Positions 7,812 to 41,150 of a stretch of DNA of 64,000 nt are shown here, piece after piece. Made by a program: the position numbers and the translations under genes. The notes under the pieces are model-generated. The model saw only the letters and a program-made list of their open reading frames with translations, ran no database searches and was not told the DNA's origin. The stretch comes from Acidihalobacter yilgarnensis (GTDB taxonomy: Bacteria > Pseudomonadota > Gammaproteobacteria > DSM-5130 > Acidihalobacteraceae). Every line of letters starts with the position of its first letter. Within the stretch, counting starts at the first letter, position 1. The stretch is from contig NZ_CP017415.1 of assembly GCF_001753245.1 (NCBI RefSeq), positions 2,136,501 to 2,200,500 of the forward strand. Reading direction: 5' to 3'.

Positions 7812-8849
7812 TCACGCTGCATATTTTACGCGAGCATCCTGGAAATATTTTTTGACGCGTTCAGGCGACTTCTCCAGTGTCCGCATGTGCTCGGTTGTCG
7901 CTGCTTTCAGCCTGGCTTTGGTGCGTACCGGAACTTTCGAATAAAGAGCCTGTTTCAAGTCAGCATTAAGCCGCTCTTCCGGGTTCAATTCCGGGCTATA
8001 GCTGGGCAGATAGAACAACTCAATCTTGTCTTTATGCGCTTCAACCCAAGCCTTGACCGGCTTGCTGTGGTGTACTCGTAGATTATCCAGAATCAGGAAC
8101 ACTTTCTTTGCTGCGTCCCGGAGCAGTGCTTCCAGAAACTCAATCAGCCTATCCGCGTTGAACGCCTCATCAATAATCATCCAGCGAGTCTTGCCCTGGT
8201 TGGTGACGGTGGCGATCATCGATAGTTTCTGGCGTGTGCCGCCCACCGCTAAAGTCACCGGGGTCTTTCCCACCGGCGCGTAGCTGCGACCACGCACATC
8301 GGTATTGACCACCGCTGTTTCGTCTCCCCAATGAACCTCGGCACCTTCTGCCTTGGCGCGTTGCTCAATGGCCGGGTATTCGTTGTCCAGCCAAGCCTTC
8401 ACCGCCTCTGGGGATTGCTCGTAGGCTTTCTTGATCGGCTTTTGCGGAGTAAATCCCCAGCGCTTGAGATGGTTGCCAACACCCCGTACAGATAGCTTGA
8501 TGCCGCATTCGCGCTCAATCAGCTGCATAACCGCTGCCCGGTTCCACAGCGCAAATTCCATCTTCAGCTGTTCCGGCCGCTTGTCGCAAATGATTTGCCG
8601 TACAGCCATTTCTTGCGATCCGCTCAATCTGCGTCCGCTTCCTTGTTTCTTGCCGCGCGCAGCAGGCTTGAGGGCCACCGCCCCCGCAGTTGAATAAGCC
8701 GTGATCGCAGCGTTCACGGCATACCAACTCAGGCCGCTATGCTCAACAATTCGCATCACGGGCATTCCCTTGCGGTACAGGCGGATGACTTGCTTGCGTC
8801 TCTCGTGCAGTACTTCTCGCGACTGCTTGCGGGCGTCTTCTTTTTCCAT
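7812..8849 (-). CDS. IS630-family transposase (complete)
   Basis: 345 residues from the ATG at 8849. The N-terminal helix-turn-helix/winged-helix region (RKQVIRLYRKGMPVMRIVEH, then a second HTH around IKLSVRGVGNHLKRWGF) is followed by the DDE core: VHWGDETAV, KVFLILDNLRVHHS and YSPELNPEERLNADLK. IS630 elements insert at TA. An imperfect inverted match (TTTATCCGCGAA at ~7799 against TTAATCCGTGAA read from the right at ~8880) may be the ends. A truncated relative lies at 489-1040. No disabling mutation is seen. Confidence 0.93.
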   Translation of the reverse strand: MEKEDARKQSREVLHERRKQVIRLYRKGMPVMRIVEHSGLSWYAVNAAITAYSTAGAVALKPAARGKKQGSGRRLSGSQEMAVRQIICDKRPEQLKMEFALWNRAAVMQLIERECGIKLSVRGVGNHLKRWGFTPQKPIKKAYEQSPEAVKAWLDNEYPAIEQRAKAEGAEVHWGDETAVVNTDVRGRSYAPVGKTPVTLAVGGTRQKLSMIATVTNQGKTRWMIIDEAFNADRLIEFLEALLRDAAKKVFLILDNLRVHHSKPVKAWVEAHKDKIELFYLPSYSPELNPEERLNADLKQALYSKVPVRTKARLKAATTEHMRTLEKSPERVKKYFQDARVKYAA

Positions 8850-9013
8850 GACCAATGAGACACATCACCGCACCTTAAAGTTCACGGATTAATCGTGCCG
8901 AGTCTATAGGCGACGTACACACGAGAGACTCCCGGCATGAGTACTTTCGTGCTGAAGGACTGCCTTGTCTACCACACCTACCCGATCTACGTGCACAGGC
9001 TGGACGGCCTATC

Positions 9014-9151
9014 AACGGCCTTGATCCGATGACCTATTTGCGGCAGGCTCTTGCCATGATCGCCACTCATCCGATCAACCGAAACGACGAACTGCTGCCC
9101 TGGCAACTGCCATTGCCGTCGGTGCCCGATGCCGCCAAGGAGGTCGCATGA
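9014..9151 (+). pseudogene. IS66-type transposase, C-terminal fragment
   Basis: Forty-five codons reading NGLDPMTYLRQALAMIATH and then NDELLPWQLPLP match the C-terminal element of IS66 transposases (D-P-x-x-Y-L-R-x-x-L). The rest of the gene is missing. Its TGA overlaps the ATG of the next gene (ATGA at 9148-9151), so the downstream protein was once, and may still be, translationally coupled to an IS66 transposase. Confidence 0.6.
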
Positions 9152-9735
9152 GCAAGATTCAGCGACTGGGCCCGACGGCGCAGCTGCAACTGCGCATCGA
9201 ACTCGAACACAGCCAGCCATTGATCTGGCGCACGGTCGTGGTACCGAGCAACATCACCCTCGTCAAGCTGCACAGCGTCATCCAAGCGGCGATGGGCTGG
9301 TGGGGTGGCCACCTGCATGAGTTCGTGATCGACCATTGCCATTATGGTCAGGTGTTCGACGAGGCTCCATTCCTGGGCATGGAACCTGAACTGGTCGACG
9401 AACGGCGCAAGAAACTGATCAACCTGCTGGGTCGAAAACGGCAGTTCGAGTACCTGTACGACTTCGGCGACAACTGGTGGCATAAGCTTCGCGTTGAGGG
9501 TGTTCTACCGCTCACAACAACACCTCGGCCCCAAATTCTGTGTCTGGCCGGTGAAATGGCTTGTCCGCCGGAAGACGTGGGCGGACTGGTTGGTTACTTC
9601 GAGTTCCTCGCGGCGGCGACCAATCCGCTACACGAAGAACACGAAGCCATGATCGAATGGTGCGGCGGTCACTTCGATCCGACCGACTTCGATATCACGC
9701 TAACAAATCAGCGGCTCCAACACATCAAGTGCTGA
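9148..9735 (+). CDS. Plasmid pRiA4b ORF-3-like protein (IS66 passenger)
   Basis: 195 residues with the PRiA4_ORF3 signature: LQLRIELEHSQPLIWR at the start, GWWGGHLHEFVI, the acidic YLYDFGDNWWHKL motif, then a conserved LAGEMACPPEDVGG-xxGYFEFL block. AAGGAGG precedes the ATG at a good distance. Proteins of this family are common cargo next to transposases; their biochemical role is unknown. Here it follows and overlaps the tail of an IS66 transposase, so it is probably a passenger gene left after loss of the rest of the element. The frame is intact. Confidence 0.88.
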   Translation: MSKIQRLGPTAQLQLRIELEHSQPLIWRTVVVPSNITLVKLHSVIQAAMGWWGGHLHEFVIDHCHYGQVFDEAPFLGMEPELVDERRKKLINLLGRKRQFEYLYDFGDNWWHKLRVEGVLPLTTTPRPQILCLAGEMACPPEDVGGLVGYFEFLAAATNPLHEEHEAMIEWCGGHFDPTDFDITLTNQRLQHIKC

Positions 9736-9754
9736 CTGAATAGGGCATAGCTGT

Positions 9755-9995
9755 CGGACGCTTGCCGGGATTCTCCTTCGCGACGTCCACGTCGTGCAGG
9801 AGCCAGTGCGCTGATACCTTTGTCTTCACGCGCGCGGTAGCGCTTTACGATGTTGCAGACCGCGACGTAGCTCAAACCAATCTCTTCGCTGATCTGAACG
9901 CGATTACGCTCGCGTTTCCGTGCCCGGATAATCTGCTTGCGCAGTTTTTTATTGCGCCGCCTGCTCCAGTTTTCTTGCGTCTTGTTTGTCCACGC
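9755..9995 (-). pseudogene. IS630-family transposase, N-terminal HTH fragment
   Basis: The minus-strand frame reads KKLRKQIIRARKRERNRVQI, then SEEIGLSYVAVCNIVKRYRA, then SALAPARRGRREGESR. This is the helix-turn-helix and linker at the start of another IS630 transposase lineage, distinct from the copy at 7812-8849. No DDE domain follows. Confidence 0.65.
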
Positions 9996-10141
9996 AAGGT
10001 TTTTGCATGACACGGTCAATAGTTCACATCATTAGTGTGCTGAATCTATAATTCATCAGTGCCAATGAAGGGTGAGTAGTTACGAGATGCCTTATAATAC
10101 CGCTATAGAGGAACCCGCACTTGGCTGATGAGGAAAGCACC

Positions 10142-10507
10142 ATGCCGACGATGCTTGTGGTGAAACGTGTCTATGCGCCAGTAGCCGAAGACGACGGGTT
10201 TCGCGTGCTCGTTGATCGACTATGGCCGCGAGGCCTGAGCAAGGCCGCTGCGCGCATCGACTTGTGGGCGAAGGATGTGGCACCGAGTGACGCCTTGCGC
10301 CAGTGGTTCGGACACGACCCAGCAAAGTGGGACGTGTTCCAACACCGTTATTCTGCTGAACTGGCGAAAAACGTCGACGCAATGGCAGCACTTCGAAGCG
10401 AACTTTCCGCGCACGTGCGCGGTGCTACGCTACTGTACGCCGCGCACGACGAACAACATAACAACGCCGTCGTGCTGTTGCGCTACCTGCAAGCACAACA
10501 CGCGTGA
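10142..10507 (+). CDS. DUF488 family protein
   Basis: 121 residues from the ATG at 10142, chosen because GAGGAAAG lies just upstream; an in-frame start 21 bases earlier lacks a site. Family motifs are clear: VKRVYAP near the N-terminus, FRVLVDRLWPRGLSK, RQWFGHDPAKWDVFQHRYSAEL and the late LLYAAHDEQHNNAVVLLRYL. DUF488 proteins are small cytoplasmic proteins of unknown enzymatic function, often next to nitrite, hemerythrin or heme-related genes. Here a hemerythrin gene follows 94 bp later and an NsrR-type regulator faces them, which suggests a nitrosative-stress set. Confidence 0.88.
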   Translation: MPTMLVVKRVYAPVAEDDGFRVLVDRLWPRGLSKAAARIDLWAKDVAPSDALRQWFGHDPAKWDVFQHRYSAELAKNVDAMAALRSELSAHVRGATLLYAAHDEQHNNAVVLLRYLQAQHA

Positions 10508-13290: not shown

Positions 13291-14682
13291 TTATGGGTTA
13301 TGCCAAGTACCGTTTTTTTTGATCAGTGCATCGGCCTGCGCTGGACCCCAGCTGCCAGGTGAATATGGATAGATATGGTCATGCACCTTGAGAATAGGTT
13401 CAACGACCGCCCATGCCGCTTCGACTGCATCTTCACGAGTAAAAAGCGCCCCATCACCTGCCATAGCATCGCTTAATAATCGTTCATAAGGTTTCTCCTC
13501 TCCCGACTGTTCTTCGAGTAGATATAGTTCACGTTGATCACCGACGAATTCCTTACCTGCTCGCTTGACGCGAGCAGCGAGGGCGACAGCAGAATTAGGA
13601 GACAATCGAAAACGCAGATAGTTGGCACGGATCCCTTTTTGTACGGAATCATCAAAAAGCATCTGCGGCGGTGGATACAATTCCACGAGTACCTCAGCCG
13701 CTGTAGTGCCGAGCTTTTTGCCAGAGCGGAGGTACCATGGCACCCCACTCCAACGCCAGGAATCGATGTACAGTTTCAACGCACAAAATGTTTCAACATC
13801 AGAATTTGGCGATACGTCTGGCTCATTTCGATAACCTACATACTGGCCTCGTATAATATCCTTCCGTTGCAAGGGCCGCATCGCTTGCAATATTTTTGCT
13901 TTCTCGTTATGAACTGCACCAAAACCTTGATAAGCAGGAGGCTCCATAGCCAACAGGGCTACTATCTGGAAAAGATGATTTTGTATAACATCGCGCAGAC
14001 AACCTGTGTCTTCATAAAATGCGCCACGACCATCGACTCCGAATTCTTCGGCTAGCGTGATCTGAACGCTTGCCACATAGTTGCGATTCCAGATGGGTTC
14101 AAGAAATGAATTTGCAAAGCGAAAATAAAGGATGTTCATGATCGCTTCTTTTCCCAGATAGTGATCTATTCGAAAGATCGAATCTTCGGGGAAAACTGCA
14201 CGCACAGTACGATTGAGTGATTGTGCCGAAGCCAGATCGTGGCCAAATGGTTTTTCAATGATGATGCGTGCACGCGTCGCCAGACCACACGCATCAAGTC
14301 CTTCAATCACCGTAGAAAATAGAGCAGGCGGAATCGCAAGATAATGTGTTGGTTGCTGGGCGTGGCCGATTACTCGTTTAAGTGTAGTGAATGTTTCCGG
14401 ATTCGAATAGTCACCGCTCACATATTCTAGCAATAAAAGAAATTTCTCGAGCGTTTCCAGGTCCGTGTTTTCAACAGCTTGGGTTATACTGGCCTTCGCT
14501 CGATCACGCAATTGCGTCACACCCCATTTAGATGAGGCGACACCGATAACCGGGATATTAAGGCGATCATTCAAAAATAACGCAAAAAGCGCTGGAAAAA
14601 TCATTTTATACGCGAGATCTCCGGTTGCGCCGAAAACCACCAGGACATCGGACAACTGCTTTGAGTGCAATTTACTAGCCAT
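13291..14682 (-). CDS. zwf: Glucose-6-phosphate 1-dehydrogenase
   Basis: 463 residues from the ATG at 14682, preceded by GGAGAGCTGAG; an alternative ATG at 14706 overlaps the end of gnd. The Rossmann motif [13 protein letters not shown] binds [13 protein letters not shown] follows, and the substrate/catalytic motif RIDHYLGKE with its histidine is intact. LRSGKKL and the C-terminal beta+alpha domain are complete. It catalyses glucose-6-P to 6-phosphogluconolactone, the entry to the pentose-phosphate pathway. It follows gnd with a 13-bp gap, so the two are co-transcribed. A ruined second copy lies at 49953-51134. No lactonase gene (pgl) is present between them. Confidence 0.96.
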
Positions 14683-27235: not shown

Positions 27236-27392
27236 GCCTCGCCTACCCTTTGTCGAGGAATTAACGCGTCTGGGAATCGATGGGCTTGTACTCGATATCT
27301 GCGATCAATTCACCTTGAAAAAAGGAATGCTCAGGGTGATTCGCGAGATATTACTCAGGAGTCAGGAATATAGGCAACAGTTGGATGCTTGA
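27228..27392 (+). CDS. Small hypothetical protein overlapping dsbB
   Basis: The ATG at 27228 lies in the last codons of dsbB (overlap of eight bases), suggesting coupled translation. The 54-residue product (PEPRLPFVEELTRLGIDGLV, then LDICDQFTLKKGMLRVIREI) looks like a soluble helical domain. Its 3' end runs into the truncated IS630 copy, so its natural C-terminus may be missing. Family not recognised. Confidence 0.4.
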   Translation: MPEPRLPFVEELTRLGIDGLVLDICDQFTLKKGMLRVIREILLRSQEYRQQLDA

Positions 27393-27886
27393 AGAAAGAT
27401 CGAATCAAGGATCGCCGGATAGGTTTCCCGTTGCCAGCGCTCGATCGCGTCAGGGTCCCTCTGATACGCACGCTGGAGTGGCTTTTGCGCAGTCAAGCCG
27501 ACCCGCGCCAGCAACGCGCCCACTGAGGCCAAGCTCAGCGAAACGCCCAATCGCTGTGCGATCAGTTCGCGCACGATCTGGCGTGTCCATAAACCGAAGT
27601 CGAAGCCATACTGCCGCGGGTTCTTGCCGTTGACCCACCGGAACACTTGCCGTCCTTGGGCATCGGTCAACTTCCGGCGCCGCCCGGGGGCCCGCCGCAA
27701 CTGCAGGGCCTGCTTGCCTTGGCCGCGCCCGCGCACCTTCAGCCGTACCTTGTACGCCCAAGTCCGGTGCATCCCGAACGACGCCGAGACCGCTGCCGGC
27801 GATTCGCCTTCCGCCATCCGCTCCAGCGCCATGAAGCGCATCGCTTCCAGCGTCTCGCGGGTCAATGTCCGTCCATCGTTCTTCAT
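27362..27886 (-). pseudogene. IS630-family transposase, N-terminal half
   Basis: Begins MKNDGRTLTRETLEAMRFMA and holds the HTH regions (SPAAVSASFGMHRTWAYKV; GVSLSLASVGALLARVG) up to IERWQRETYPAI, where the DDE core should begin. It then switches to an unrelated tail (FLQASNCCLYS). It is truncated near 27400 at the border with the ORF downstream of dsbB. This is a third IS630 lineage in the window. Confidence 0.85.
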
Positions 27887-27939
27887 ACCCAATTATGACC
27901 GAAGTCGACGCCATTTGTTCCCTAATCTACTGACTTATG

Positions 27940-28064
27940 AGTAATCGCCGATAAATCTGCGATTAATTAGGCGGGATCTTACGTAACCGCGTAATCAATT
28001 TTATTGCAGGCACTTCGGAGCGATTGTTGACAGGCTTTGCGTAATCTCGCGATTACGCGGTTAC
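27940..28064. other. Candidate origin of transfer with nested inverted repeats
   Basis: GTAACCGCGTAATC (27983-27996) and GATTACGCGGTTAC (28051-28064) are exact reverse complements 54 bp apart. Inside, GCGTAATC-TCGC-GATTACGC (28039-28058) forms a compact palindrome with 8-bp arms. Degenerate half-sites (GAGTAATCGC ~27940, GCGATTAA ~27959) lie to the left. The position just upstream of an RHH protein, T4CP and MOBF relaxase is that of oriT in R388-like plasmids. The nic site cannot be assigned by eye. Confidence 0.55.
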
Positions 28065-28108
28065 TTGAAATTTCTGGATTTTGGAATCGGGTAAACAAAG
28101 GATCATCT

Positions 28109-28336
28109 ATGAAAAATCAAAATGTGGCATTCCGAGTCCCTGCGGCGATCTACGATGAGGTTTGCAGCCGCGCCGAGGCGGACCGACAAACCTTGGCGGA
28201 CTGGTTACGTAGGGCGGTGCGTAATGAGATCGAGCGCCAACAGGAAGGTGATCGGCTGGCTGCTATGGAGGCTCGCCTGGAAGCTCAGATCGCCGATCTG
28301 AGCGCGCTCATTCGTCGCCTGGCCGTCGAGGACTGA
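28109..28336 (+). CDS. Ribbon-helix-helix relaxosome accessory protein (TrwA-like)
   Basis: 75 residues. AAGGAT lies six bases before the ATG. The N-terminal NQNVAFRVPAAIYDEVCSRA followed by RQTLADWLRRAVRNEIERQQ is a typical RHH fold (DNA-contacting beta-strand VAFRV, then two helices); the C-terminal half is a coiled coil suited to tetramerisation. In R388 the equivalent TrwA binds oriT, aids the relaxase and represses its own operon. The inverted GCGTAATC sites 45-170 bp upstream are the likely operators. The T4CP gene starts three bases after its stop. Confidence 0.75.
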   Translation: MKNQNVAFRVPAAIYDEVCSRAEADRQTLADWLRRAVRNEIERQQEGDRLAAMEARLEAQIADLSALIRRLAVED

Positions 28337-28339
28337 TTT

Positions 28340-30094
28340 GTGCCCCGCGACTGGCTTTCGACGGCAGGCATAGCAGTTGGCGTCGGTCTTCCCCTGAGCG
28401 CGCTGGGCGCGGCCGCAGCGCTCTCAATTGGCGTCGCGGGGCACCAGCTGCCGCCACTGAGCACGCTTGCCAGAGCGATCGCCGGTGCGCATCTACCCTC
28501 CTTGCTTTCAGATGCTCTCAGGCTCCCGAATCCCATCTATTCCCAGGTGTGGCTCGCAAGATTCGCACCAACCTGGCCCGCATGGGCAACAGTCGGCGCT
28601 GCCGCTGGTATCACCGCTGGCATCGCCCTCGGTTGGCTCGCCGGGTCGGTCGCCGAAATCAAGGCCGAGCGCGGGCGCTCAGTCGCTCGGGGGCATGCCG
28701 CTGCGCGCGCCGAGGCGGCCATCGAGACCAAGGTCTCCGGCCCAGGCATCCAGATTCACCCCCAGTTACAAATCTCTCGTGATCGCGAGACACGCGGCAT
28801 TCAGTTAACCGGATCCCCTGGCTCCGGCAAGACCGTAATCATTGTGTGGCTCCTGCAGCAGATCCTCCGCGACCCGGGCGCGCGGGTCTTAATCCATGAC
28901 ATCAAAGGAGACTTCACGTCGCGCATATTCTCAATCCTCCGCGAGGACGAACGTGTTTCGCTCGTTGCCCCTTGGGACCGACGCTCCGCGCGTTGGTCCG
29001 CCGCCGCCGACATTCGGTCTGCAGCTGATGCACGCGAGCTCGCCACGCGACTGATCGCCACTCCCACAACGGGGAACGCGCAATGGGCGCAGGGCGCGCA
29101 GCTGATTCTGGCGGGCTTGGTCGTGACGCTTGCGAAGGGAACGAAAGGCCGCTGGACATGGGCTGACCTGCAGGATGAAATCGCGCAGCCCTACTCACAG
29201 ATGCGTGCGTCGGCAATCACAGGCGCGCCGATGGCGGCGGGTTTGCTCCCGGCCGAACCGAATGCCACAACGGCCTCTTACATGGCCAACCTGACGGCCG
29301 CCGCCGGCGGTCTGATTTCTGATTTAGCCGCCGCTGACCGTGCCACACGAGGGTCTTGGAACGCCCGGTCCTGGCTTGCCGGCCGCGGCCCCCGAATCGT
29401 TATTTTGCAAGGCTCGACACGCTTCAGCGAGCTCTCAAAGGCCGTCAATTCCTCAATCATCCGCGCCATCTCGGGCAATTTGGATTCGATGCCTGACAGC
29501 AGAACAAGGCGGATCTGGCTCGTCATGGATGAGCTCGCGCAACTTGGAAAGGTTGAGTTATCACCGCTGATCGAAACGGGGCGCAGCAAAGGCGTTTGCT
29601 TGATTTCGGGATGGCAAGACGTAGGCCAACGCCGAGCAATCTACGGCCGAGACGTGGCCGACAGCTGGGATTCGATGATCGGCACCCACTTAATTTGCCG
29701 TTTGATCGGCCCGGACTCGCAGCAATGGGCGAGCGCACTAGTCGGACGCCGCCAGGTACGCCGGCAGGTCAGGAGCGCCAGCGGTGATCCTACGGCTCTA
29801 AGCTCGCGCAACATGTCGAGAGCGCGAAACGTGAGCATAAGCGAGCAAATCGCGGACGAAGATGTCGTTCGACCGGAAGAATTCGCGGCGCTGGGTCCGA
29901 GAGCAGGCGGCGTAGAGGCAATGCTGATTACTGGCGGGCAGACCGTGCATCGAATGGTTTGGCCGTTTCCTCAAAACTGGAGAGAGGTCGCGCCAGCGCA
30001 CGTTCCAGCAGCGTGGACTCAGGGGCTAGCAACAGAGTCGGACGACTCCGCCGAAGAAAAGTCTCCCCAAACCCTTCTGCGCCCTTGGCTGTGA
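28340..30094 (+). CDS. trwB: Type IV coupling protein (TrwB/VirD4/TraD family)
   Basis: 584 residues with a GTG start three bases after the RHH gene. Two N-terminal transmembrane helices (~10-33 and ~82-103) flank a short periplasmic loop. The cytosolic ATPase has Walker A LTGSPGSGKTV (158-165) and Walker B IWLVMDELAQLGK; a late SGWQDVGQRRAIYGRDVADSW-like region is typical of TraD/TrwB. The hexameric ATPase brings the relaxosome to the secretion channel and pumps DNA. The order RHH-T4CP-relaxase copies trwA-trwB-trwC. No damage is seen. Confidence 0.92.
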   Translation: MPRDWLSTAGIAVGVGLPLSALGAAAALSIGVAGHQLPPLSTLARAIAGAHLPSLLSDALRLPNPIYSQVWLARFAPTWPAWATVGAAAGITAGIALGWLAGSVAEIKAERGRSVARGHAAARAEAAIETKVSGPGIQIHPQLQISRDRETRGIQLTGSPGSGKTVIIVWLLQQILRDPGARVLIHDIKGDFTSRIFSILREDERVSLVAPWDRRSARWSAAADIRSAADARELATRLIATPTTGNAQWAQGAQLILAGLVVTLAKGTKGRWTWADLQDEIAQPYSQMRASAITGAPMAAGLLPAEPNATTASYMANLTAAAGGLISDLAAADRATRGSWNARSWLAGRGPRIVILQGSTRFSELSKAVNSSIIRAISGNLDSMPDSRTRRIWLVMDELAQLGKVELSPLIETGRSKGVCLISGWQDVGQRRAIYGRDVADSWDSMIGTHLICRLIGPDSQQWASALVGRRQVRRQVRSASGDPTALSSRNMSRARNVSISEQIADEDVVRPEEFAALGPRAGGVEAMLITGGQTVHRMVWPFPQNWREVAPAHVPAAWTQGLATESDDSAEEKSPQTLLRPWL

Positions 30095-30495
30095 ACGACA
30101 ACAACAAGCAAAGCCGAGCGACAGTCCAGATTGAGACCGAGGCCGAATCGCCTGCCGAAGAGTCGGCCCCACTGCCCACGCCCATAATCACCCTAGACGA
30201 AAACACCACTGCAGGCTCTACAAGCGAGCAATTCATCGCCGACGCCGATGAATCGCCATCTGATGAGGTCGGAGACGAGCTCGTGGATGAGGTTTTGAAG
30301 ACCACAATCGACGCCGTCATCCCCGGTGCTGGTATAGCGGCCGACCTAGCTGAGGCCCTTGATGATGCTGCCGGACCTCCAAGCGACGCCGGTACACCAA
30401 CGGCAACACCTGCCGCGCCCCCAGAAGACCCCAAGCCTCGGAAACGACGGCTCAGGCTCCGGCCAGAAAACGAAGCAGCAAGCGACGACATCTGA
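30091..30495 (+). CDS. Acidic hypothetical protein
   Basis: 134 residues from the GTG at 30091 overlapping the T4CP stop (GTGA). The sequence is very acidic and Pro/Thr/Ala-rich, with a short hydrophobic stretch (TTIDAVIPGAGIAADLAEAL) and a basic tail RKRRLRLR. Low complexity suggests a largely disordered protein. I do not recognise it; R388 has no gene at this place between trwB and trwC. Confidence 0.55.
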   Translation: MNDNNKQSRATVQIETEAESPAEESAPLPTPIITLDENTTAGSTSEQFIADADESPSDEVGDELVDEVLKTTIDAVIPGAGIAADLAEALDDAAGPPSDAGTPTATPAAPPEDPKPRKRRLRLRPENEAASDDI

Positions 30496-30514
30496 TCAAT
30501 AAGGAGAATTGATA

Positions 30515-30787
30515 ATGCAACGCCAAGCCAGCGACCCTCTAGTTTTCCCAGTTCCATCGTTCTTCGCAGCGGCTCGCATCATCTTCAACCACACAGCAGC
30601 TGGAGGAGAATTCACCTCACGCGACCTCATGAAAATCTCGGGGTTGACCGACTCTCGAATGCTGTTCGAAGCAGCCTGGCTCGCCGCCGATCAGATCCAG
30701 GGTCTCGCGTGGTTCAACTCGAGGAGGTTGGCCAATACCTGGTGGCGTGAGTGGGTTCTCTGCGTGCAGCCGCCGAGGCTGCACTGA
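30515..30787 (+). CDS. Hypothetical protein upstream of relaxase
   Basis: 90 residues; AAGGAGAA lies about seven bases before the ATG at 30515, a strong start signal. The product (VFPVPSFFAAARIIFNHTAA; FTSRDLMKISGLTDSRMLFE) may contain a small helix-turn-helix-like region but has no known motif. Its TGA overlaps the relaxase ATG (TGATG), so the two are translationally coupled. Confidence 0.6.
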   Translation: MQRQASDPLVFPVPSFFAAARIIFNHTAAGGEFTSRDLMKISGLTDSRMLFEAAWLAADQIQGLAWFNSRRLANTWWREWVLCVQPPRLH

Positions 30788-33549
30788 TGCTGAGCATCAG
30801 CGCGCGCGGATCTGCGGCCGAGGCCGTTTCTTACTACCTACACCTGAAGGACGAGCGCGGCAGACAGGATGAATATTATTCATCCGAAGGCGCCGGCCAG
30901 TGGTTCGGTGCAGGCGCCGAGGCGCTGGGCATCGCCGGTGAAATCACGCCGGAGGCCTTCGCGCTCGCAGCCGCCGGCCGCTCGCCAGACGGCGAGAACC
31001 TGGTGCAAGGTGCCGGCGATAAGCATCGTGCCGGGTGGGACCTGACGCTTTCAGCTCCTAAATCGGTATCCGTCTTATGGGGGATCGCGGACGCTTCCCG
31101 CCAAACTGAAATCCAAGCCGCTCACGGGCAGGCCGTTGAGCGCGCGCTGCAGCATATTGAGCAGGAATTCACCCTTGCCCGACGCGGCAAAGGTGGCGTG
31201 GAGCGTGAACAGGCAAAGCTGCTGTGGTCCGTTTTCCAGCACGGAACCAGCCGCGAACAAGACCCACAGCTGCACAGCCACGCGTTCTTGCACAACCTCG
31301 CGCAGCGCGCCGACGGCACCTGGGGCGGAATCGACCCGCGCGAGCTGTATCAGTGGAAACTAGCCCTGGGTGCGACCTACCGTGCCGGGCTGGCCAGTTC
31401 TATGCGGGAACTGGGTTACAAGATCGAGGCCGACGGCGACAGCTTCCGGGTCTCGGGCGTGCCCCATGAGGTATGCCGGCAGTTTTCTAAGCGCCGCGAG
31501 CAGATCGAGGCTGCTCTGGCGGAGGCTGGCCAGAGCAGCGCGAAATCGTCAGAACTCGCCGCGTTGGGAACTCGCCAGGCCAAGTCCAGGGATCTCAACC
31601 TCGATGAATTGCACGCCCGTTGGCAGGATGAGGCCAGCGCTCTGCACTTCAGCGCCGACCAGGCGCTGGAAGTCGAAACCAAGGATGACCTCGGCCCGAT
31701 GCCCGCACCCGAAGAGCTGCTGCGTCGAGCCACCGAACACGACGCAGTGATCGAGGACCGCCATATCTGGCAGGCAGTCGCAGTTGCTGCCCAACATCGC
31801 GGCATGGGGCTGGACGCGATCCGCACGCACGTTGAGGACGTGCTGGCGTCAGACGCGTGTATGCGCCTGGTGCACCCAGAAACTGGCGACGTTCGCTACA
31901 CGACCCGCGAGCTGTATCGCCAAGAGCGCCAGATCATCTCCGCAGCGCAAGAGCGCGCCGAAGAGGATCACCACGCCGTCCCGGCGGCGCTGGTGGACCA
32001 GGCGCTGGAGCAATTCAGCACAGAAAAGGGGTTCGCGCTCAGCGCCGAGCAGCAGACCGCTGTCCGGCATGTCACTCAGCGCGACGGCGCGGTACAGGTG
32101 ATCGTTGGCGACGCCGGCACCGGCAAATCGACTGCGATGCTTGCCGCGCGCATGGCCTGGGAGTCTGCCGGCCAGCGCGTGATCGGCTGCGCAATATCAG
32201 GTAAGGCCGCCGCCGGGTTGCAGGAAGGTTCGGGCATCGAGTCCCGAACGATCGCGTCGCTGCTGATCACGCTGGAGCCCACCACAGACCCCCAGACAGG
32301 AGAGGTGCGTGCTCCCCGCGATGCATTGTCTTCCACCGACGTGCTGGTCATAGATGAAGCTGGGATGGTTGATAGCCGTACCATGCATCGACTGATGGAG
32401 CATGTGAATGCCGCCTGTTGCAGGGTCGTCATGGCTGGCGACCACAAACAACTGCAGAGCGTGGGCGCTGGTGGGGTTTTCAGGCATTTGGCCGAACGCG
32501 ACAGCGCGCGAATCACAGAGATTCACCGTCAGCGCGAGGGTTGGGCGCGCGATGCTGTTCGGGAGTTCAGCCGCGGCGACGCGGCGGAGGCTATCGGCCG
32601 ATTCCTCGACCGTGACCTGGTGCACGTCGCCGATGACCAACAGACGGCCATCACCCAGGCGGTAGATCGCTGGGCGGCGCACGCAGCCGAAGTTGGCGCG
32701 TCCGAAGCGCTACTGATGGCGAGCACAAATGCCGAGGTGGCGGCACTGAACACTGCAGCGCGCGCCCGAATGCAGGCCGAGCACCGGCTATGCAATGAAA
32801 TCGAGATTCAGGTCCACGACCGCCAAGGCCGGTCCGCGGGAAAGCTGGCCGTAGCCGAGGGCGACAGGCTGCTAGCCAAAAAAAACGACCGCGCCACGTC
32901 GCTCAAAAACGGGGATTTGATGACAGTCGAGCGCATCGAATACACGCCCTCGGGCGTACAGGTCATCGCGCGCCTCGACCGCACGGCTGAGCTAGTACGG
33001 TTTGACCCGGCCGAATATTCCCAGCTCCGTCACGGCTATGCCGTGACGACGCACGCCGCGCAGGGTGCGACCGTAGACCGAGCGGTGGCCCTAGCCGGCG
33101 GCTCCATGACCAGCCGCGAATCGACCTACGTACAGATGAGCCGAATGCGCGAGACCGCTGAAATCATCGCAACACGTCAGCAACTTCGCGATGCGGCCGA
33201 GCAGATCGGTCCGACCGAGAAGATGCTTGAGCTGGCTGCGACGGTTGTCGCCGAGCAGGCAACCGATCTGCCTCCCGAGTGCGCTGATTCCTTTTCTGAA
33301 TGCCGCGCCTGGCTGAATGATCACGCTAGAAACGAACTCGGCGGCGTAGAAGTAGATCGCCTGGCCGAACTGAAGGATCTGATTGAGGCGATGGGCGCGT
33401 CGCGCCAGAAAGAGACGACGCTCGATTATCAGATTGCAGTAGATCGTGAGGCCGAGCAGCATGCCGAAGCTCCCACACATGCCGCCGAACCCGTCCAGCC
33501 CGAGCCCCACCAGGCGCACGAGCACCACATGACGATGGAAATGGAGTGA
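30787..33549 (+). CDS. trwC: MOBF conjugative relaxase-helicase (TrwC/TraI-like)
   Basis: 920 residues from the ATG at 30787. The relaxase domain (1-~300) has paired catalytic tyrosines in AVSYYLHL (Y16/Y17) and DEYYSSEG (Y30/Y31) and the histidine triad in FQHGTSREQDPQLHSHAF (H152, H163, H165), nearly the same spacing as TrwC of R388. The SF1 helicase domain has Walker A VGDAGTGKSTAM (~440), Walker B VLVIDEAGMVDS and AGDHKQLQSVGAGG; a late motif VTTHAAQGATVDRAV completes it. It would nick oriT, stay bound to the 5' end and unwind the plasmid strand. No interruption is seen. The C-terminal ~60 residues are His/Glu/Pro-rich. Confidence 0.95.
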   Translation: MLSISARGSAAEAVSYYLHLKDERGRQDEYYSSEGAGQWFGAGAEALGIAGEITPEAFALAAAGRSPDGENLVQGAGDKHRAGWDLTLSAPKSVSVLWGIADASRQTEIQAAHGQAVERALQHIEQEFTLARRGKGGVEREQAKLLWSVFQHGTSREQDPQLHSHAFLHNLAQRADGTWGGIDPRELYQWKLALGATYRAGLASSMRELGYKIEADGDSFRVSGVPHEVCRQFSKRREQIEAALAEAGQSSAKSSELAALGTRQAKSRDLNLDELHARWQDEASALHFSADQALEVETKDDLGPMPAPEELLRRATEHDAVIEDRHIWQAVAVAAQHRGMGLDAIRTHVEDVLASDACMRLVHPETGDVRYTTRELYRQERQIISAAQERAEEDHHAVPAALVDQALEQFSTEKGFALSAEQQTAVRHVTQRDGAVQVIVGDAGTGKSTAMLAARMAWESAGQRVIGCAISGKAAAGLQEGSGIESRTIASLLITLEPTTDPQTGEVRAPRDALSSTDVLVIDEAGMVDSRTMHRLMEHVNAACCRVVMAGDHKQLQSVGAGGVFRHLAERDSARITEIHRQREGWARDAVREFSRGDAAEAIGRFLDRDLVHVADDQQTAITQAVDRWAAHAAEVGASEALLMASTNAEVAALNTAARARMQAEHRLCNEIEIQVHDRQGRSAGKLAVAEGDRLLAKKNDRATSLKNGDLMTVERIEYTPSGVQVIARLDRTAELVRFDPAEYSQLRHGYAVTTHAAQGATVDRAVALAGGSMTSRESTYVQMSRMRETAEIIATRQQLRDAAEQIGPTEKMLELAATVVAEQATDLPPECADSFSECRAWLNDHARNELGGVEVDRLAELKDLIEAMGASRQKETTLDYQIAVDREAEQHAEAPTHAAEPVQPEPHQAHEHHMTMEME

Positions 33550-33553
33550 TCAA

Positions 33554-33868
33554 ATGAATAAGAAAATCGAATCCGAGAAAGCCCAGCAGCTCGTCACCGT
33601 GCGCCTCGCGCGTCCCGGGTATATCCCCGTGGCTATCCCCGCGAAGCTCCGAATGACTCGCTTCCCCTTGAAACTTATTGCTATCACACGTTTCGGAGAT
33701 TTCGAGCTCCTGCCTACCCCGCATAAGCACGTCTACTCCCAGGAAGAGTTTGAATCAAAGATGGATTCTGAGCCCCCGCTCGATCCAGATCCGTTTTATA
33801 TCGACGCGGAAGGCTGGTTTCCGGAATTCGATGACGAAGATGAAGAGCTAGATCGGAACCAAGGATAA
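33554..33868 (+). CDS. Hypothetical protein, acidic C-terminus
   Basis: 104 residues starting four bases after the relaxase stop. The N-terminal half is mixed beta (LVTVRLARPGYIPVAIPAKL, then FPLKLIAITRFGDFELLP); the C-terminal third is strongly acidic (FDDEDEEL). No family recognised. It lies in the tra operon between relaxase and the TraY-like gene with tiny gaps, so it is probably expressed with them. Confidence 0.6.
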   Translation: MNKKIESEKAQQLVTVRLARPGYIPVAIPAKLRMTRFPLKLIAITRFGDFELLPTPHKHVYSQEEFESKMDSEPPLDPDPFYIDAEGWFPEFDDEDEELDRNQG

Positions 33869-33873
33869 GAACA

Positions 33874-35982
33874 ATGAATTACACAAACGCTACCGGCCCG
33901 GACGCCTCGACAAGCCTGCTCGGGCAATTATTCGATCTCAAACTGTTTCACGCCGCGATCGCAGGAGGTGCCAGCGCGCCGAGCGCGCTCGGGACGATGT
34001 TCGGCGCGCTGAACGGTTTTGCGCTGATCGCGACAGGTTTGGTTTTGCTCTACATGTACTCGGTCGCCATCATGCAGACCGCGCATGAGGGCGAGCCCCT
34101 GGGCAAACGCTACAGCACGCTGTGGGCGCCATTGCGATCGGTGGCCGCTACCGTATTCGTCAGTCCGTTCCCGGGATTGGGCGGCTTCTCCGTGCTGCAG
34201 GCGATCGTTTTGTCGATGGTCGCGGTATCGATCAACGGCGCCAACATCCTATACAAGGCAGAGCTCGGTTTTTTCAAATCCAACAACTACTCGCTGATGC
34301 CGATCAGCGCGAGTGCGCAGCCGAGCAAACAGCTCGCCAGCCAGATCCTCCAGTCTGAAACCTGCACCGCCGCCCTCAATCTGGAGGAAAAGTCGCTTGG
34401 CGTCAAAGCGAAGCGCATCGGTCTCGATACCGCCACAGGTAATCCAGAAGTGTATGGCTACACTTGGCAATCAACCTCGGGCGGGGTCCCCGTGAGCTGC
34501 GGCCAGATCGAGGTCAACTGTTCGAAGGTAGGGAAGAAAACGCCCGTCGGGCAGGCACTGTGCCAAGCGACAGGCCTCGCGACCGAGCAGCTGGCGATCG
34601 ACCTCAACCCGCTCGCGAAGTACCTCGTGCAGGGCAAGGCAGCCAATGAAGGATATGTTCGCTGGGCGCTGGAAGACTATGGCTACACGTGGAAAGAAGC
34701 AGCAAAATACGCTGAGAAAGCCGAAAAAAACAGCCAAAAATCGGCCTTGAACGCCTTTATCAAGCAGGCCGATGCTCAAGGCTGGCTGACGGCTGGCATG
34801 TGGTACTGGACCTTGGCTGCGACGAGCCTCCAGGACCAGGCCGCCGGCGATATGCGTCCGGCATACAAGTCGCCTGACTGGAGTTCGATACCGCTCCTTC
34901 GCCAGTCGATCATGCCCGACATCGGGCAGCTGAGGGCTTATCTTGCCAGCGCGCCAGGCCTCGATGGCTCGGCACCGTCTCAGGACTCCAGCGCCACCAC
35001 CAACACCGCGTCGCAGCAGTCCGGCGGTCCTCCTCAGGCGCAGGAAATTGTCAGTAAAATCTTCGGTCACAGCCTGGGCGCTTCTGGCCAGGTCCTGAGC
35101 GGCCTATTGGAAAAAGGCAACGACCCGATCCGTGCACTCGCGAGTTTTGGCCAGTACCTCATAGGTGGTGCTTATGGAATCGTCGCCACTTATGCAGTTG
35201 CTGAGGGTGCGGTCGGCGGCGTCCACGGGATCCCGCTCATTGGTTCGGTCGCGGCCGGCGCTGAATCCTCGATACTCCACGCAATCGGGCCGGTCGTCAT
35301 GATCGTCGCCGCAGCCCTCTGGAGCGAAGGCGGCGTCCTCGCCTACTACCTGCCGGCGATCCCCTTCATCTTCTGGAGTTTTGGTGTCCTGGGCTGGTTG
35401 CTGCTGATCGTCGAAAGCATGATCGCCGCGCCACTGTGGGCGGTATCGCACGCGGTACCGGAAGGGGAGGGATTCGCCGGTCGCTATGCGTTGCAGGGTT
35501 GGCAGATGTTCGTCAACGTGATTTTCCGTCCGATCTTGTTGACGGTCGGGCTGTTCGCGTCACTGCTGCTGATGCAGTTGATCGTTCGCTCCGCGCTCCA
35601 CGGCTACCAGGTGGCGAATCTATCGATTGTCGACAGCACCAGCATGGTGAGCCTGACCGGTTTCCTATTCACAAATCTGATCATGATCGCCCTAGCGATC
35701 GCGCTCGCGCACAAGTCACACGAATTGATCTATGAGACGGCGGACAACGTCATGAAGTGGATTGGGTTCGGAGTCCCCGGGCTCGGAGGCGAGGCCAACG
35801 GCGCCGCTGCCGTTGGTAATAGCGCGCGAGCCGGCGCAGGAACCGCGAACTCGGCTGCGCAGTCCATCGTAGCCGCCGGTAAGAAGGCGAAGGAAGGCGG
35901 TGATGACGAGGGCGGACAAGCACCGCGCCGCTTACCCAACGATGCCGACAATGGCGGAGCCGATGTCAAAAGGCCTCACTGA
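33874..35982 (+). CDS. traY: DotA/TraY family membrane protein (type IVB secretion/IncI transfer)
   Basis: 702 residues. N-terminal hydrophobic segments (FALIATGLVLLYMYSVAIM; VLQAIVLSMVAVSINGANI), a long periplasmic-type domain with cysteines (ETCTAAL, CGQIEVNCS), then a cluster of C-terminal membrane helices (VVMIVAAALWSEGGVLAYYL; IPFIFWSFGVLGWLLLIVES; FLFTNLIMIALAIALAH) with the conserved MIAAPLWAVSHAVPEGEGF signature. DotA/TraY is an inner-membrane component of type IVB systems. Its presence beside a MOBF (type IVA-associated) relaxase is unusual. AAGGATAAGAACA precedes the ATG. No other Dot/Icm or Tra channel gene is in the window. Confidence 0.88.
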   Translation: MNYTNATGPDASTSLLGQLFDLKLFHAAIAGGASAPSALGTMFGALNGFALIATGLVLLYMYSVAIMQTAHEGEPLGKRYSTLWAPLRSVAATVFVSPFPGLGGFSVLQAIVLSMVAVSINGANILYKAELGFFKSNNYSLMPISASAQPSKQLASQILQSETCTAALNLEEKSLGVKAKRIGLDTATGNPEVYGYTWQSTSGGVPVSCGQIEVNCSKVGKKTPVGQALCQATGLATEQLAIDLNPLAKYLVQGKAANEGYVRWALEDYGYTWKEAAKYAEKAEKNSQKSALNAFIKQADAQGWLTAGMWYWTLAATSLQDQAAGDMRPAYKSPDWSSIPLLRQSIMPDIGQLRAYLASAPGLDGSAPSQDSSATTNTASQQSGGPPQAQEIVSKIFGHSLGASGQVLSGLLEKGNDPIRALASFGQYLIGGAYGIVATYAVAEGAVGGVHGIPLIGSVAAGAESSILHAIGPVVMIVAAALWSEGGVLAYYLPAIPFIFWSFGVLGWLLLIVESMIAAPLWAVSHAVPEGEGFAGRYALQGWQMFVNVIFRPILLTVGLFASLLLMQLIVRSALHGYQVANLSIVDSTSMVSLTGFLFTNLIMIALAIALAHKSHELIYETADNVMKWIGFGVPGLGGEANGAAAVGNSARAGAGTANSAAQSIVAAGKKAKEGGDDEGGQAPRRLPNDADNGGADVKRPH

Positions 35983-35991
35983 GGAAAAAAC

Positions 35992-36195
35992 ATGAGTTAC
36001 TACCATCATGCTTACTACGGCGGCCACGGCATCGCCCACATGATCATCAGCGCGGTGATTCATTCGGTCATATGGGCGGTTGTCTGGAAAACGATGCGAG
36101 GTCTAGGCCTCGCGGATAGCGCGCTACTGGCGGTTGGCGCGATCATGGTGATCGCTGCTGGTATTTGGTTTTTACGCAGAATCAAAAGTACGTGA
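35992..36195 (+). CDS. Small membrane protein after traY
   Basis: 67 residues; GAGGAAAAAAC precedes the ATG, nine bases after the traY stop. A His/Tyr-rich N-terminus (SYYHHAYYGGHGIAH) is followed by two hydrophobic helices (~17-33 and ~44-60) and a basic end RRIKST. It probably works with the TraY-like protein in the inner membrane; family unknown. The histidines could bind metal, which is speculative. Confidence 0.6.
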   Translation: MSYYHHAYYGGHGIAHMIISAVIHSVIWAVVWKTMRGLGLADSALLAVGAIMVIAAGIWFLRRIKST

Positions 36196-36542: not shown

Positions 36543-36767
36543 ATGAACCCAACCTTAAACAGACTCGACCGGATCGTGCATCAGGTGCTGCACGGCGACG
36601 ACGATGCGGCGGCGGGACTCTCTACGGCCGAAAGACTGTACGTCGCCCTGGCGGCGTGCCGGACCGAATGGCTGGTAAACAGTGGCTACACCATCCCTGC
36701 CGCACTCGGACGCATTGGCCCGGAGTGGACGGCGGAACTGGTCGCCCGTTGGGAGTATCGGGCATGA
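36543..36767 (+). CDS. Hypothetical protein coupled to RadC-like gene
   Basis: 74 residues; GGAGG lies ten bases before the ATG at 36543. The sequence is helical and polar (NPTLNRLDRIVHQVLHGDDD; STAERLYVALAACRTEWLVN). Its TGA overlaps the ATG of the radC-like gene (ATGA at 36764), a stable two-gene arrangement on mobile elements. Function unknown. Confidence 0.65.
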   Translation: MNPTLNRLDRIVHQVLHGDDDAAAGLSTAERLYVALAACRTEWLVNSGYTIPAALGRIGPEWTAELVARWEYRA

Positions 36768-37279
36768 GCGCGCAGCAGCAGGGCATCGAGGCCTGCGGGT
36801 TTGTGCGGGATGCGGCGGGTAACTACTGGATTGCGCAGACGGTCAGCCCTGACGAGATCATCGAGCAAGCCCGGCAGATCCTAGCCGAGCGCGTAAGACG
36901 CGAAAGCGTCATCGACTGCCCGCAGACCGCGCGTGACTTCGTGACCATGAGCCTTACAGGCCGTCAGTCCGAAGTCTTTTGCGTGATGTGGCTGGATAAC
37001 CGGCACCAGATCATCGCGTTCGATGAGCTGTTCCAAGGCACCATCGACGGGTGCAGCGTGCATCCGCGCGAGGTCGTGCGTGCTGCACTTCACCACAACG
37101 CGGCAGCTTGCATCCTGACCCACAATCACCCCTCGGGTGTAGCCGAACCCAGCCGGGCCGACCAGGCCATAACAGACAAGCTCAAGCAGGCGCTGGGACT
37201 GATCGATGTACGGGTTCTGGATCACTTGGTCGTGGGTGGTGCCGAGGTCACAAGCATGGCGGAGAGAGGTCAGCTTTAG
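36764..37279 (+). CDS. RadC-family JAB/MPN-domain protein
   Basis: 171 residues from the ATG at 36764; the frame is open ~100 codons upstream but that part overlaps the preceding gene. The JAMM metal motif is complete: a conserved Glu in IAFDELFQGT and HNHPSGVAEPSRAD with two His and one Asp. By the family pattern it binds zinc. The Shapes group on plasmids and ICEs lacks the N-terminal HhH region of chromosomal RadC, as here. Its biochemical role is unsettled; anti-restriction or recombination roles have been proposed for mobile copies. Confidence 0.9.
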   Translation: MSAQQQGIEACGFVRDAAGNYWIAQTVSPDEIIEQARQILAERVRRESVIDCPQTARDFVTMSLTGRQSEVFCVMWLDNRHQIIAFDELFQGTIDGCSVHPREVVRAALHHNAAACILTHNHPSGVAEPSRADQAITDKLKQALGLIDVRVLDHLVVGGAEVTSMAERGQL

Positions 37280-38174: not shown

Positions 38175-38513
38175 ATGAAGATGCCCAAACCAGTCGAGTT
38201 CCGCGGTAGCGCGCTGGATGATTTGCGGTCCTTCCCGTCGGATGCTAGACGGGAAGCCGGTCATCAAATCGACCAGGTGCAAAACGGGCACGAGCCGGCC
38301 GACTGGAAACCTATGCCGACAGTCGGCAAGGGTGTCCGGGAGATTCGCATCCGCGATGCGGGCGATGCGTTCCGAGTGATCTACGTCGCAAAGCTGGGCG
38401 ATACCGTCTACATACTGCACTGCTTCCAGAAGAAGACGCAGAAAACGGCCAAGGGCGACTTGCACTTGGCGGAGCAACGCTACCGCGATCTGTTGAAGGA
38501 GCTAGGACGATGA
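38175..38513 (+). CDS. higB: HigB/RelE-superfamily toxin (phage Gp49-like)
   Basis: 112 residues with the Gp49-like pattern: VEFRGSALDDLRSFPSDARR, REIRIRDAGDAFRVIYVAK, VYILHCFQKKTQKT and a helical C-terminus. Family members cut mRNA at the ribosome. The toxin-first order and ATGA overlap with the downstream Xre antitoxin are typical of higBA. The promoter region carries a palindrome over the -10 box. Confidence 0.88.
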   Translation: MKMPKPVEFRGSALDDLRSFPSDARREAGHQIDQVQNGHEPADWKPMPTVGKGVREIRIRDAGDAFRVIYVAKLGDTVYILHCFQKKTQKTAKGDLHLAEQRYRDLLKELGR

Positions 38514-38791
38514 GCAACGAACGATACGCCAGCGTGTGGGACGCCATCGAGGACACCCCCGAGACGGCCGAGAACATGAAACTGCGCTCGGCGCTCATGA
38601 TGGCGCTGAAGAAGCACATTGAGGCCGCCGGACTCAGCCAGGGGCAAGCCGCCAAGCTGTTTGGCGTGACGCAGCCTCGCGTGTCCGACCTCATGCGCGG
38701 CAAGATCAACCTGTTCGGCCTCGATGCGCTGGTCAACATGGCAGCGGCAGCCGGGATGCACGTCGAGTTGCGGGTGAAGGACGCGGCTTGA
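38510..38791 (+). CDS. higA: HigA-type Xre antitoxin
   Basis: 93 residues; its ATG overlaps the toxin stop. The C-terminal half is a Cro/Xre helix-turn-helix: IEAAGLSQGQAAKLFGVTQP then RVSDLMRGKINLFGLDALVN. It would neutralise the toxin and, with it, repress the operon through the palindrome at 38149-38164. This pair would stabilise the integrated element. Confidence 0.88.
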   Translation: MSNERYASVWDAIEDTPETAENMKLRSALMMALKKHIEAAGLSQGQAAKLFGVTQPRVSDLMRGKINLFGLDALVNMAAAAGMHVELRVKDAA

Positions 38792-39840: not shown

Positions 39841-40902
39841 CTACTCTCCACGCACCGCCTGTACCAAAGTAGCTGCCTGCAGGTGAGTATACCGCTTCAA
39901 CATCTGCACCGTCTTATGGCCGGTGACTGTTTGTATGAGCATGGGATTCAAGCCGCGCTCAAACAAGCGGCTAGTCGCCTCATGTCGTAGATCATGGAAC
40001 GTCAAGCCTGTGATACCGGCACGCCTGCGGGCCTTCTGCCAACTTGCCCGCAAGCCCTCGCCTGTATAGTTCCAGAGTGGCCTGACTTGGCCTGGCTCCT
40101 CGTCGCCACGCCTCCGTCCCGAGGCTTCACGTCCCGCCAATCGTGCTAGCTGTCTCCCGATAGCGGCCTCGGCTCGCACCGTAAGCGGCACGGTTCGACG
40201 TTCGCCATTCTTCGTATCAGCCAGAAATACAGTATGACGCTGAAAATCGACCACGCTCGCATTCATGGACAGGATCTCTCCCTGCCGCATGGCAGACTCG
40301 ATCGCGAGGATGATGATATCAGCGAGCTCGGGATTCACGATCAAAGCTGCCTCGATGAGATCGCTTTCTTCTCCATTCAACAATCGCCGCTCACGGCCAC
40401 GCGGCAAACGTGGCTTACGGACGAGCTGGACGGGGTTGTTTAGGAACTCCATTCCCCATTCTTTGGCACTGATCGTGAAGCAATGGGAGAGCGTCGCAAG
40501 GTATAGCCGAATGGTGTTCGGTGAACGCCCGCCCTCCTCCAGTTCCCGAACGAACACAGATACATCACGTCCGCGGACATCGGCCAACTTCATAGCGCTG
40601 AGTCTCATTGCCTGGATAACGCGAATACGGCTGAGCTCAGACCGCTTAGAATCCTCGTTCTTCTTCGTCGGGACTATCTCCAGCGCGTAGCGTTGGAGTG
40701 CGTCACCTACCGTTAACTGCATTGCTTCGGCCAAACCGTCATCTGCTCGGCCTAGCTTGCGCTGCTCTCTAAGCTTTCGTTCCAGCAGTGTCGCCCAGCG
40801 TTGGGCCTCCGCCTTGGAATCAAAAGTTCCTCGCTGAACCGGAAAACCCTTGAGCCGGACGATCGCCCTCCAGCTACCTCCACGCTTCTCAAGCGTCGCC
40901 AC
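39841..40902 (-). CDS. int: Site-specific tyrosine recombinase / integrase
   Basis: 353 residues. An N-terminal arm-binding domain (KRGGSWRAIVRLKGFPVQRG) precedes a SAM-like core-binding domain (~85-165) and the catalytic domain with the R-H-R-H-Y set: SAMRQGEIL (Arg), a Lys in the beta-hairpin (ADTKNGERR), FHDLRHEATS (His, Arg), VTGHKTVQ (His) and MLKRYTHL (nucleophile Tyr). The order is complete. It lies 200 bp from a tRNA-Asn 3' fragment, the presumed attachment site. It would drive integration and excision of the element; no excisionase gene is evident. Confidence 0.95.
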   Translation of the reverse strand: MATLEKRGGSWRAIVRLKGFPVQRGTFDSKAEAQRWATLLERKLREQRKLGRADDGLAEAMQLTVGDALQRYALEIVPTKKNEDSKRSELSRIRVIQAMRLSAMKLADVRGRDVSVFVRELEEGGRSPNTIRLYLATLSHCFTISAKEWGMEFLNNPVQLVRKPRLPRGRERRLLNGEESDLIEAALIVNPELADIIILAIESAMRQGEILSMNASVVDFQRHTVFLADTKNGERRTVPLTVRAEAAIGRQLARLAGREASGRRRGDEEPGQVRPLWNYTGEGLRASWQKARRRAGITGLTFHDLRHEATSRLFERGLNPMLIQTVTGHKTVQMLKRYTHLQAATLVQAVRGE

Positions 40903-41104: not shown

Positions 41105-41150
41105 CCTGTTAATCACCGGGTCCGTGGTTCGAGTCCGCGCTGGGGAGCCA
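41105..41150 (+). other. tRNA-Asn (GTT) 3' fragment, attachment-site scar
   Basis: The stretch carries the anticodon loop CTGTTAA, a complete T-arm (CGTGG-TTCGAGT-CCGCG), the acceptor strand CTGGGGA, discriminator G and CCA. The bases before CTGTTAA cannot pair with the anticodon stem, and there is no D-arm or 5' acceptor, so only the 3' part is present. This is how tRNA-targeting integrases leave the distal att site. The full tRNA gene should stand at the other end of the element; I do not see it to the left in this window. Confidence 0.8.

Follow-up and report, generated by a model that had tools for sequence, protein, structure and literature searches.

A MOBF relaxase operon with a lone TraY/DotA gene in Acidihalobacter yilgarnensis as the probable transfer module of a helper-dependent integrative mobilizable element

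Within the genome of Acidihalobacter yilgarnensis (G000; single contig, 3.57 Mb), we analysed a stretch of 64,000 nucleotides (bases 2136501-2200500), hereafter the window, and found an operon that provides a relaxosome, a type IV coupling protein (T4CP) and one channel subunit, TraY/DotA, with corresponding sets in three families. We propose, with a probability of roughly 0.6, that this operon serves the transfer of a helper-dependent integrative mobilizable element (IME), which would bring its own relaxosome, T4CP and TraY to reshape the type IVB channel of a helper. This reading is based on the placement of traY in a tight operon with the relaxase and T4CP genes, the recurrence of the set in two further genomes (G030 and G336), the grouping of the T4CP, the precedents set by other elements, and an integrase with its att site. 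A sequence-only reading of the same DNA had offered either the hijacking of a type IVB system encoded elsewhere or a new class of transfer system. The former is the best reading, although this genome, which lacks DotH and DotC, does not encode the helper; the latter is not supported.

The operon and its surroundings

Eight frames, all intact, run head to tail from 28109 to 36195 as one compact operon (Table 1), with intergenic gaps of -4 to +19 nt and stop/start overlaps at the T4CP/ORF134 and ORF90/TrwC (TGATG) joints. A frameshift had been suspected in the T4CP gene and was ruled out because ORF134 begins at a GTG that overlaps the T4CP stop. The G+C content of the module is 61%, and that of the remaining window is about 55%; TrwC and TraY are each encoded once in the genome. 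Profiles and frames bear out the extent of the operon and its content of relaxase, coupling protein and TraY/DotA as the sequence-only reading described them. The three unknown proteins it counted are actually four small ones (ORF134, ORF90, ORF104 and ORF67), for which no supported homologue was found in any locus or library compared.

Table 1. Features of the operon and its flanks (window positions)
Feature	Position	Strand	Basis
Candidate oriT / RHH-binding region or operator	27942..28071	.	repeats and inverted repeat 5' of operon
Small RHH-like relaxosome protein (TrwA/NikA position), 75 aa	28109..28336	+	weakly NikA-like, E 0.027
Type IV coupling protein, TrwB/TraD superfamily	28340..30094	+	TrwB_AAD_bind 7e-59, Walker A intact
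ORF134, acidic, translationally coupled to T4CP (GTGA)	30091..30495	+	frame analysis
ORF90	30515..30787	+	
MOBF relaxase-helicase TrwC	30787..33549	+	TrwC 1.6e-79; MobF 258 bits (cut-off 100)
ORF104, soluble, C-terminus acidic	33554..33868	+	
TraY/DotA, VirB6-type inner-membrane channel subunit of type IVB systems	33874..35982	+	TIGR04346 DotA_TraY 332 bits
ORF67, small hydrophobic, starts 9 nt past traY	35992..36195	+	
RadC-like JAB-domain protein, cargo	36764..37279	+	
Gp49/HTH_37 toxin-antitoxin pair, cargo	38175..38791	+	
Tyrosine integrase	39841..40902	-	Phage_integrase 3.7e-23
att site, 33-bp copy of tRNA-Asn 3' end	41118..41150	+	exact match to intact gene

The relaxase retains its tyrosines, its histidines and the catalytic and helicase motifs, and it belongs to the MOBF family. 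TraY exceeds the TIGR04346 cut-off of 100 bits over profile positions 15-656 of 656 and matches the solved DotA chain 9ngy at 1e-28 (phmmer); an AlphaFold2 model built from a five-sequence alignment had a pLDDT of 38. Judged by its position, ORF67 is a candidate exclusion or accessory protein. It showed no detectable relation to ExcA, and no ExcA-like protein was found beside the window traY.

The region 5' of the operon contains three GCGTAATC-type repeats at a spacing of 50 nt and an imperfect inverted repeat of 21 nt, with 54 nt separating its arms. From this location ahead of the relaxosome operon, which matches R388, we take the region as a candidate oriT or operator. On the 3' side, a LAPAL-family protein is encoded in addition to the cargo in Table 1, and the integrase and the att copy of tRNA-Asn are the marks of an integrated element. 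A second att end was not found beside the element, and the sole other copy is the intact tRNA-Asn gene itself (G000:C1:1574124), which lies 603 kb from the att copy. On the left side of the element, an IS630-like transposase remnant (27362-27892) adjoins the operon, and its 99% identical counterpart is found 2.2 kb from the intact tRNA-Asn gene; a simple IS-mediated inversion was rejected as the cause of the 603 kb separation because the orientations do not fit. As in an IME, the element has a canonical (MOBF) relaxase of its own and a channel subunit, TraY only, without a complete channel. Its flanks show the integrase and one att copy, with the second end not adjacent.

Missing channel genes, recurrence and phylogeny

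In agreement with the sequence-only reading, the window holds no channel gene besides TraY. That reading had called for a genome-wide search for Dot/Icm or Tra genes, and the absence of a helper reported here was judged by three marker families, DotH, DotC and VirB4. DotH was missing from the window genome and from four relatives; neither DotH nor DotC, the core genes of a complete type IVB (MPF_I) system, was detected in G000, G002, G030, G336 or G324; and the VirB4-type ATPase (CagE_TrbE_VirB) of a complete trw (MPF_T) system was absent from G000, G030 and G336. The positive controls matched in each case, namely genomes with known type IVB loci for DotH and DotC, plasmids with such loci for DotC as well, and R388 and a Xanthomonas type IVA plasmid for VirB4. 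Congener G001 has a dotD-dotC pair and a 96-residue dotB fragment amid chromosomal genes (G001:C1:2350001-2370000, about 8569-10434), a relic which indicates that type IVB elements have visited the genus; beyond this dotDCB remnant, no helper was found in the host genome or its congeners. Separately, C-terminal pieces of TraY stand alone in the chromosomes of G002 (L016 9766-10539; about 69% identical to the window TraY) and G324 (L052 9450-10454; 43-47% identical), and these are probably relics of related elements.

TraY was found in 51 of the 369 genomes of the class that we surveyed. The trwC-then-traY order recurs in G030, from a second gammaproteobacterial family, as RHH-T4CP-TrwC-TraY, with an RHH-like protein at the corresponding place that is 46-48% identical to that of the window. 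In G336, from a third family, the set is rearranged (TraY-T4CP-TrwC) and adjoined by a tyrosine integrase. Searches with reference type IVB proteins (tblastn) detected no other channel genes within 60 kb of the G030 module or 20 kb of the G336 module, and the same order was not found inside a complete known IncI- or trw-type locus. When 398 genomes of the phylum were surveyed for TrwC, more RHH-T4CP-TrwC cassettes without TraY came to light, in G385, G495, G404 (twice) and G587, where no RHH gene was called, and a TrwC scan of viral contigs returned no match. Several further observations were made around these genes: the G030 module (L053) is adjoined by CRISPR-like repeats (about 13300-13600) and accompanied by genes for a phage GPA-type replication protein and a KfrA-like protein; a TraX-like protein suspected from a motif 5' of the G336 traY gained no support from profile comparison; and three gammaproteobacterial genomes (loci L054, L055 and L056) encode two DotA/TraY paralogues in tandem.

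The relaxases of the three TraY-bearing modules group together in the TrwC tree (84/85), with those of the window and G336 as a pair (96/98). The T4CP tree instead pairs the window with G030 (91/85), inside a clade with type IVB plasmids of Martelella, Shinella and Sinorhizobium (97/98), and places the G336 protein with R388 TrwB (100/98). A single clade for the T4CPs of all three modules was rejected (p=0.0015), as was one for their TraY proteins (p=0.016), for which support for separate origins is moderate and long branches call for caution. The relaxase appears to be the stable part, while the motor and the channel subunit look exchanged, as would be expected if the parts that face the helper are swapped. 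Grouping of the window T4CP with R388 TrwB and F TraD was rejected (AU p=2e-10). The description of the module as R388-like therefore holds for the relaxase family and for the gene order, which is RHH-T4CP-MOBF relaxase as in R388 trwA-B-C, but not for the coupling-protein branch, and R388 differs further in having a full type IVA channel.

The sequence-only reading had also taken TrwB-type coupling proteins to work normally with type IVA channels, a premise that several plasmids contradict. Plasmids of Martelella, Shinella and Sinorhizobium encode DotB, DotC and DotD together with a TrwB-family coupling protein, the Shinella plasmid has TraY as well, and in Desulfosarcina, plasmid Do28_1 has a compact type IVB locus that includes TraY and a TrwB-family protein. 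Based on these plasmids, and on the grouping of the window T4CP with the rhizobial ones, TrwB-family motors and type IVB channels are an existing pairing. The plasmids differ from the window element in having more channel genes (DotB/C/D and others) and different relaxases. The unusual feature of the window is one channel gene on its own, not the mixture of a TrwB-family protein with a type IVB one.

Precedents and a proposed role for TraY

In type IVB machines, the VirB6-type subunit is DotA, a pentamer at the centre that has been proposed to form part of the channel (PMC12857230). Elements that carry such a subunit have been described for other channels. SGI1 carries TraG, a VirB6 homologue that replaces that of the helper and reportedly disables entry exclusion (PMC5389848; PMC5704250), and both GIsul2 and the IncP island carry the VirB6 homologue TrbL, the latter together with its own relaxase (PMC5704250). 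SGI1 (traG, traH, traN) and GIsul2 (trbJ, trbK, trbL) share an element-borne VirB6-type subunit with the window but have no relaxase or coupling protein of their own (PMC5704250), and their channels are MPF_F and MPF_T. The IncP island and non-canonical IMEs (PMC5704250) are closer, being likewise integrated, with their own relaxosome, a VirB6-type subunit and no full channel, whereas their relaxase is MOBP, their channel genes are TrbJ/TrbL and their helpers are IncP (type IVA) plasmids; the window element has a MOBF relaxase, its own coupling protein and a TraY of type IVB. As of 2017, a review knew of no MobF relaxase in a canonical IME, and it does not list the combination of MOBF relaxase, own coupling protein and VirB6-type subunit (PMC5704250). 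Among titles and abstracts of the literature, where subscription journals are thinly covered, we recognised no account of type IVB IMEs, of a lone TraY or of mobilizable traY-excA plasmids. The window element is best explained as the equivalent, for type IVB channels, of what SGI1, GIsul2 and the IncP island represent for theirs, rather than as a new transfer class.

A second, independent type IVB example is provided by the mobilizable MOBP plasmids pYL19, p3_2010Ycf503 and a 13.7 kb plasmid of X. axonopodis (Xanthomonas, Burkholderia), which like the window element carry traY and no other channel gene. Their TraY belongs to the IncI branch (100/100 with ColIb-P9 TraY). The gene 3' of traY encodes a protein with weak similarity to ExcA (E about 3e-4; in a profile comparison with ExcA, 1.5e-4 at probability 52), and on two of the plasmids, pYL19 and that of X. 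axonopodis, the gene 5' of traY encodes a TraX homologue (E about 1e-8). In contrast to the window element, these are plasmids with a MOBP relaxase, no T4CP, an IncI-like TraY and excA-like (in two cases also traX-like) neighbours. Apart from these, p53EVA-3, which is typed non-mobilizable, has an isolated DotA/TraY gene close to genes for type 4 pilins, and about a dozen enterobacterial plasmids of 40-55 kb resemble it.

According to one account (PMC8923210, from Sakuma 2013), the recipient ExcA of IncI plasmids acts on donor TraY. Under the proposed mechanism, the IME would excise when a type IVB conjugative element is present in the cell, TrwC would nick its oriT, and its own coupling protein would dock the relaxosome onto the channel of the helper. 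The IME TraY would then take the place of helper TraY as the central pentameric inner-membrane subunit, and the resulting hybrid channel would favour transfer of the IME. Since the recipient exclusion proteins of IncI plasmids recognise TraY, the IME TraY may also let the element enter cells that already hold the helper, as SGI1 TraG does for IncC. Its role is probably to favour transfer of the element or to evade entry exclusion directed at TraY. Remodelling of the helper channel and disabling of exclusion have been shown for SGI1, whereas the window element is known from its sequence; for it, subunit replacement, helper identity and exclusion evasion are what we infer.

Alternative explanations and implications

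The operon could instead be what survives of a formerly complete type IVB conjugative element, with TraY left over after the remaining channel genes were lost, for instance in an IS-linked rearrangement at the left end. The IS630-like remnant with its copy near tRNA-Asn, the decayed dotDCB remnant in G001 and the truncated TraY pieces in the congener G002 and the more distant G324 are all consistent with such a loss. However, the eight frames are intact, traY shares a tight operon with the relaxase, and an equal partial set without other channel genes occurs in G030 and G336, and we consider a decayed element unlikely. We find it improbable that TraY is an interference or defence-like protein, which would by itself poison or block a helper channel or mark the cell for exclusion without serving transfer. 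A VirB6-type subunit made on its own could act as a dominant negative, and plasmids typed non-mobilizable, such as p53EVA-3, also have lone TraY genes, yet co-transcription with the relaxosome and T4CP genes points to transfer, which is also what the subunits of SGI1, GIsul2 and the IncP island serve.

MOBF relaxases are commonest with type IVA systems, and the T4CP of the G336 module lies with R388 TrwB, as might be expected if a type IVA helper mobilized the module and TraY did something unrelated. This has little to recommend it, given that the T4CPs of the window and G030 group with type IVB ones; to our knowledge, TraY/DotA is known from type IVB machines only. The least credible alternative is a self-sufficient minimal system, a new transfer class that moves DNA with nothing more than the T4CP and a TraY pentamer. 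By the three marker families, three host genomes do have no other channel gene, but such a system would lack a VirB4-type ATPase and an envelope-spanning core, and related RHH-T4CP-TrwC elements manage without TraY, which fits dependence on a helper.

The helper-dependent IME may represent a class of elements that parasitise type IVB systems and swap T4CP and TraY to match or outwit their helpers, with the MOBF relaxase as a stable core, a generalisation that we advance tentatively and at somewhat less than even odds. If the proposal is true, capture of VirB6-type subunits by parasitic elements would be general across channels, with TraG for MPF_F, TrbL for MPF_T and TraY/DotA for type IVB. 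It would also mean that MOBF relaxases and TrwB-family motors can drive type IVB channels, would explain the lone traY genes of small plasmids and chromosomes, and would make the target of type IVB exclusion testable using natural variants.
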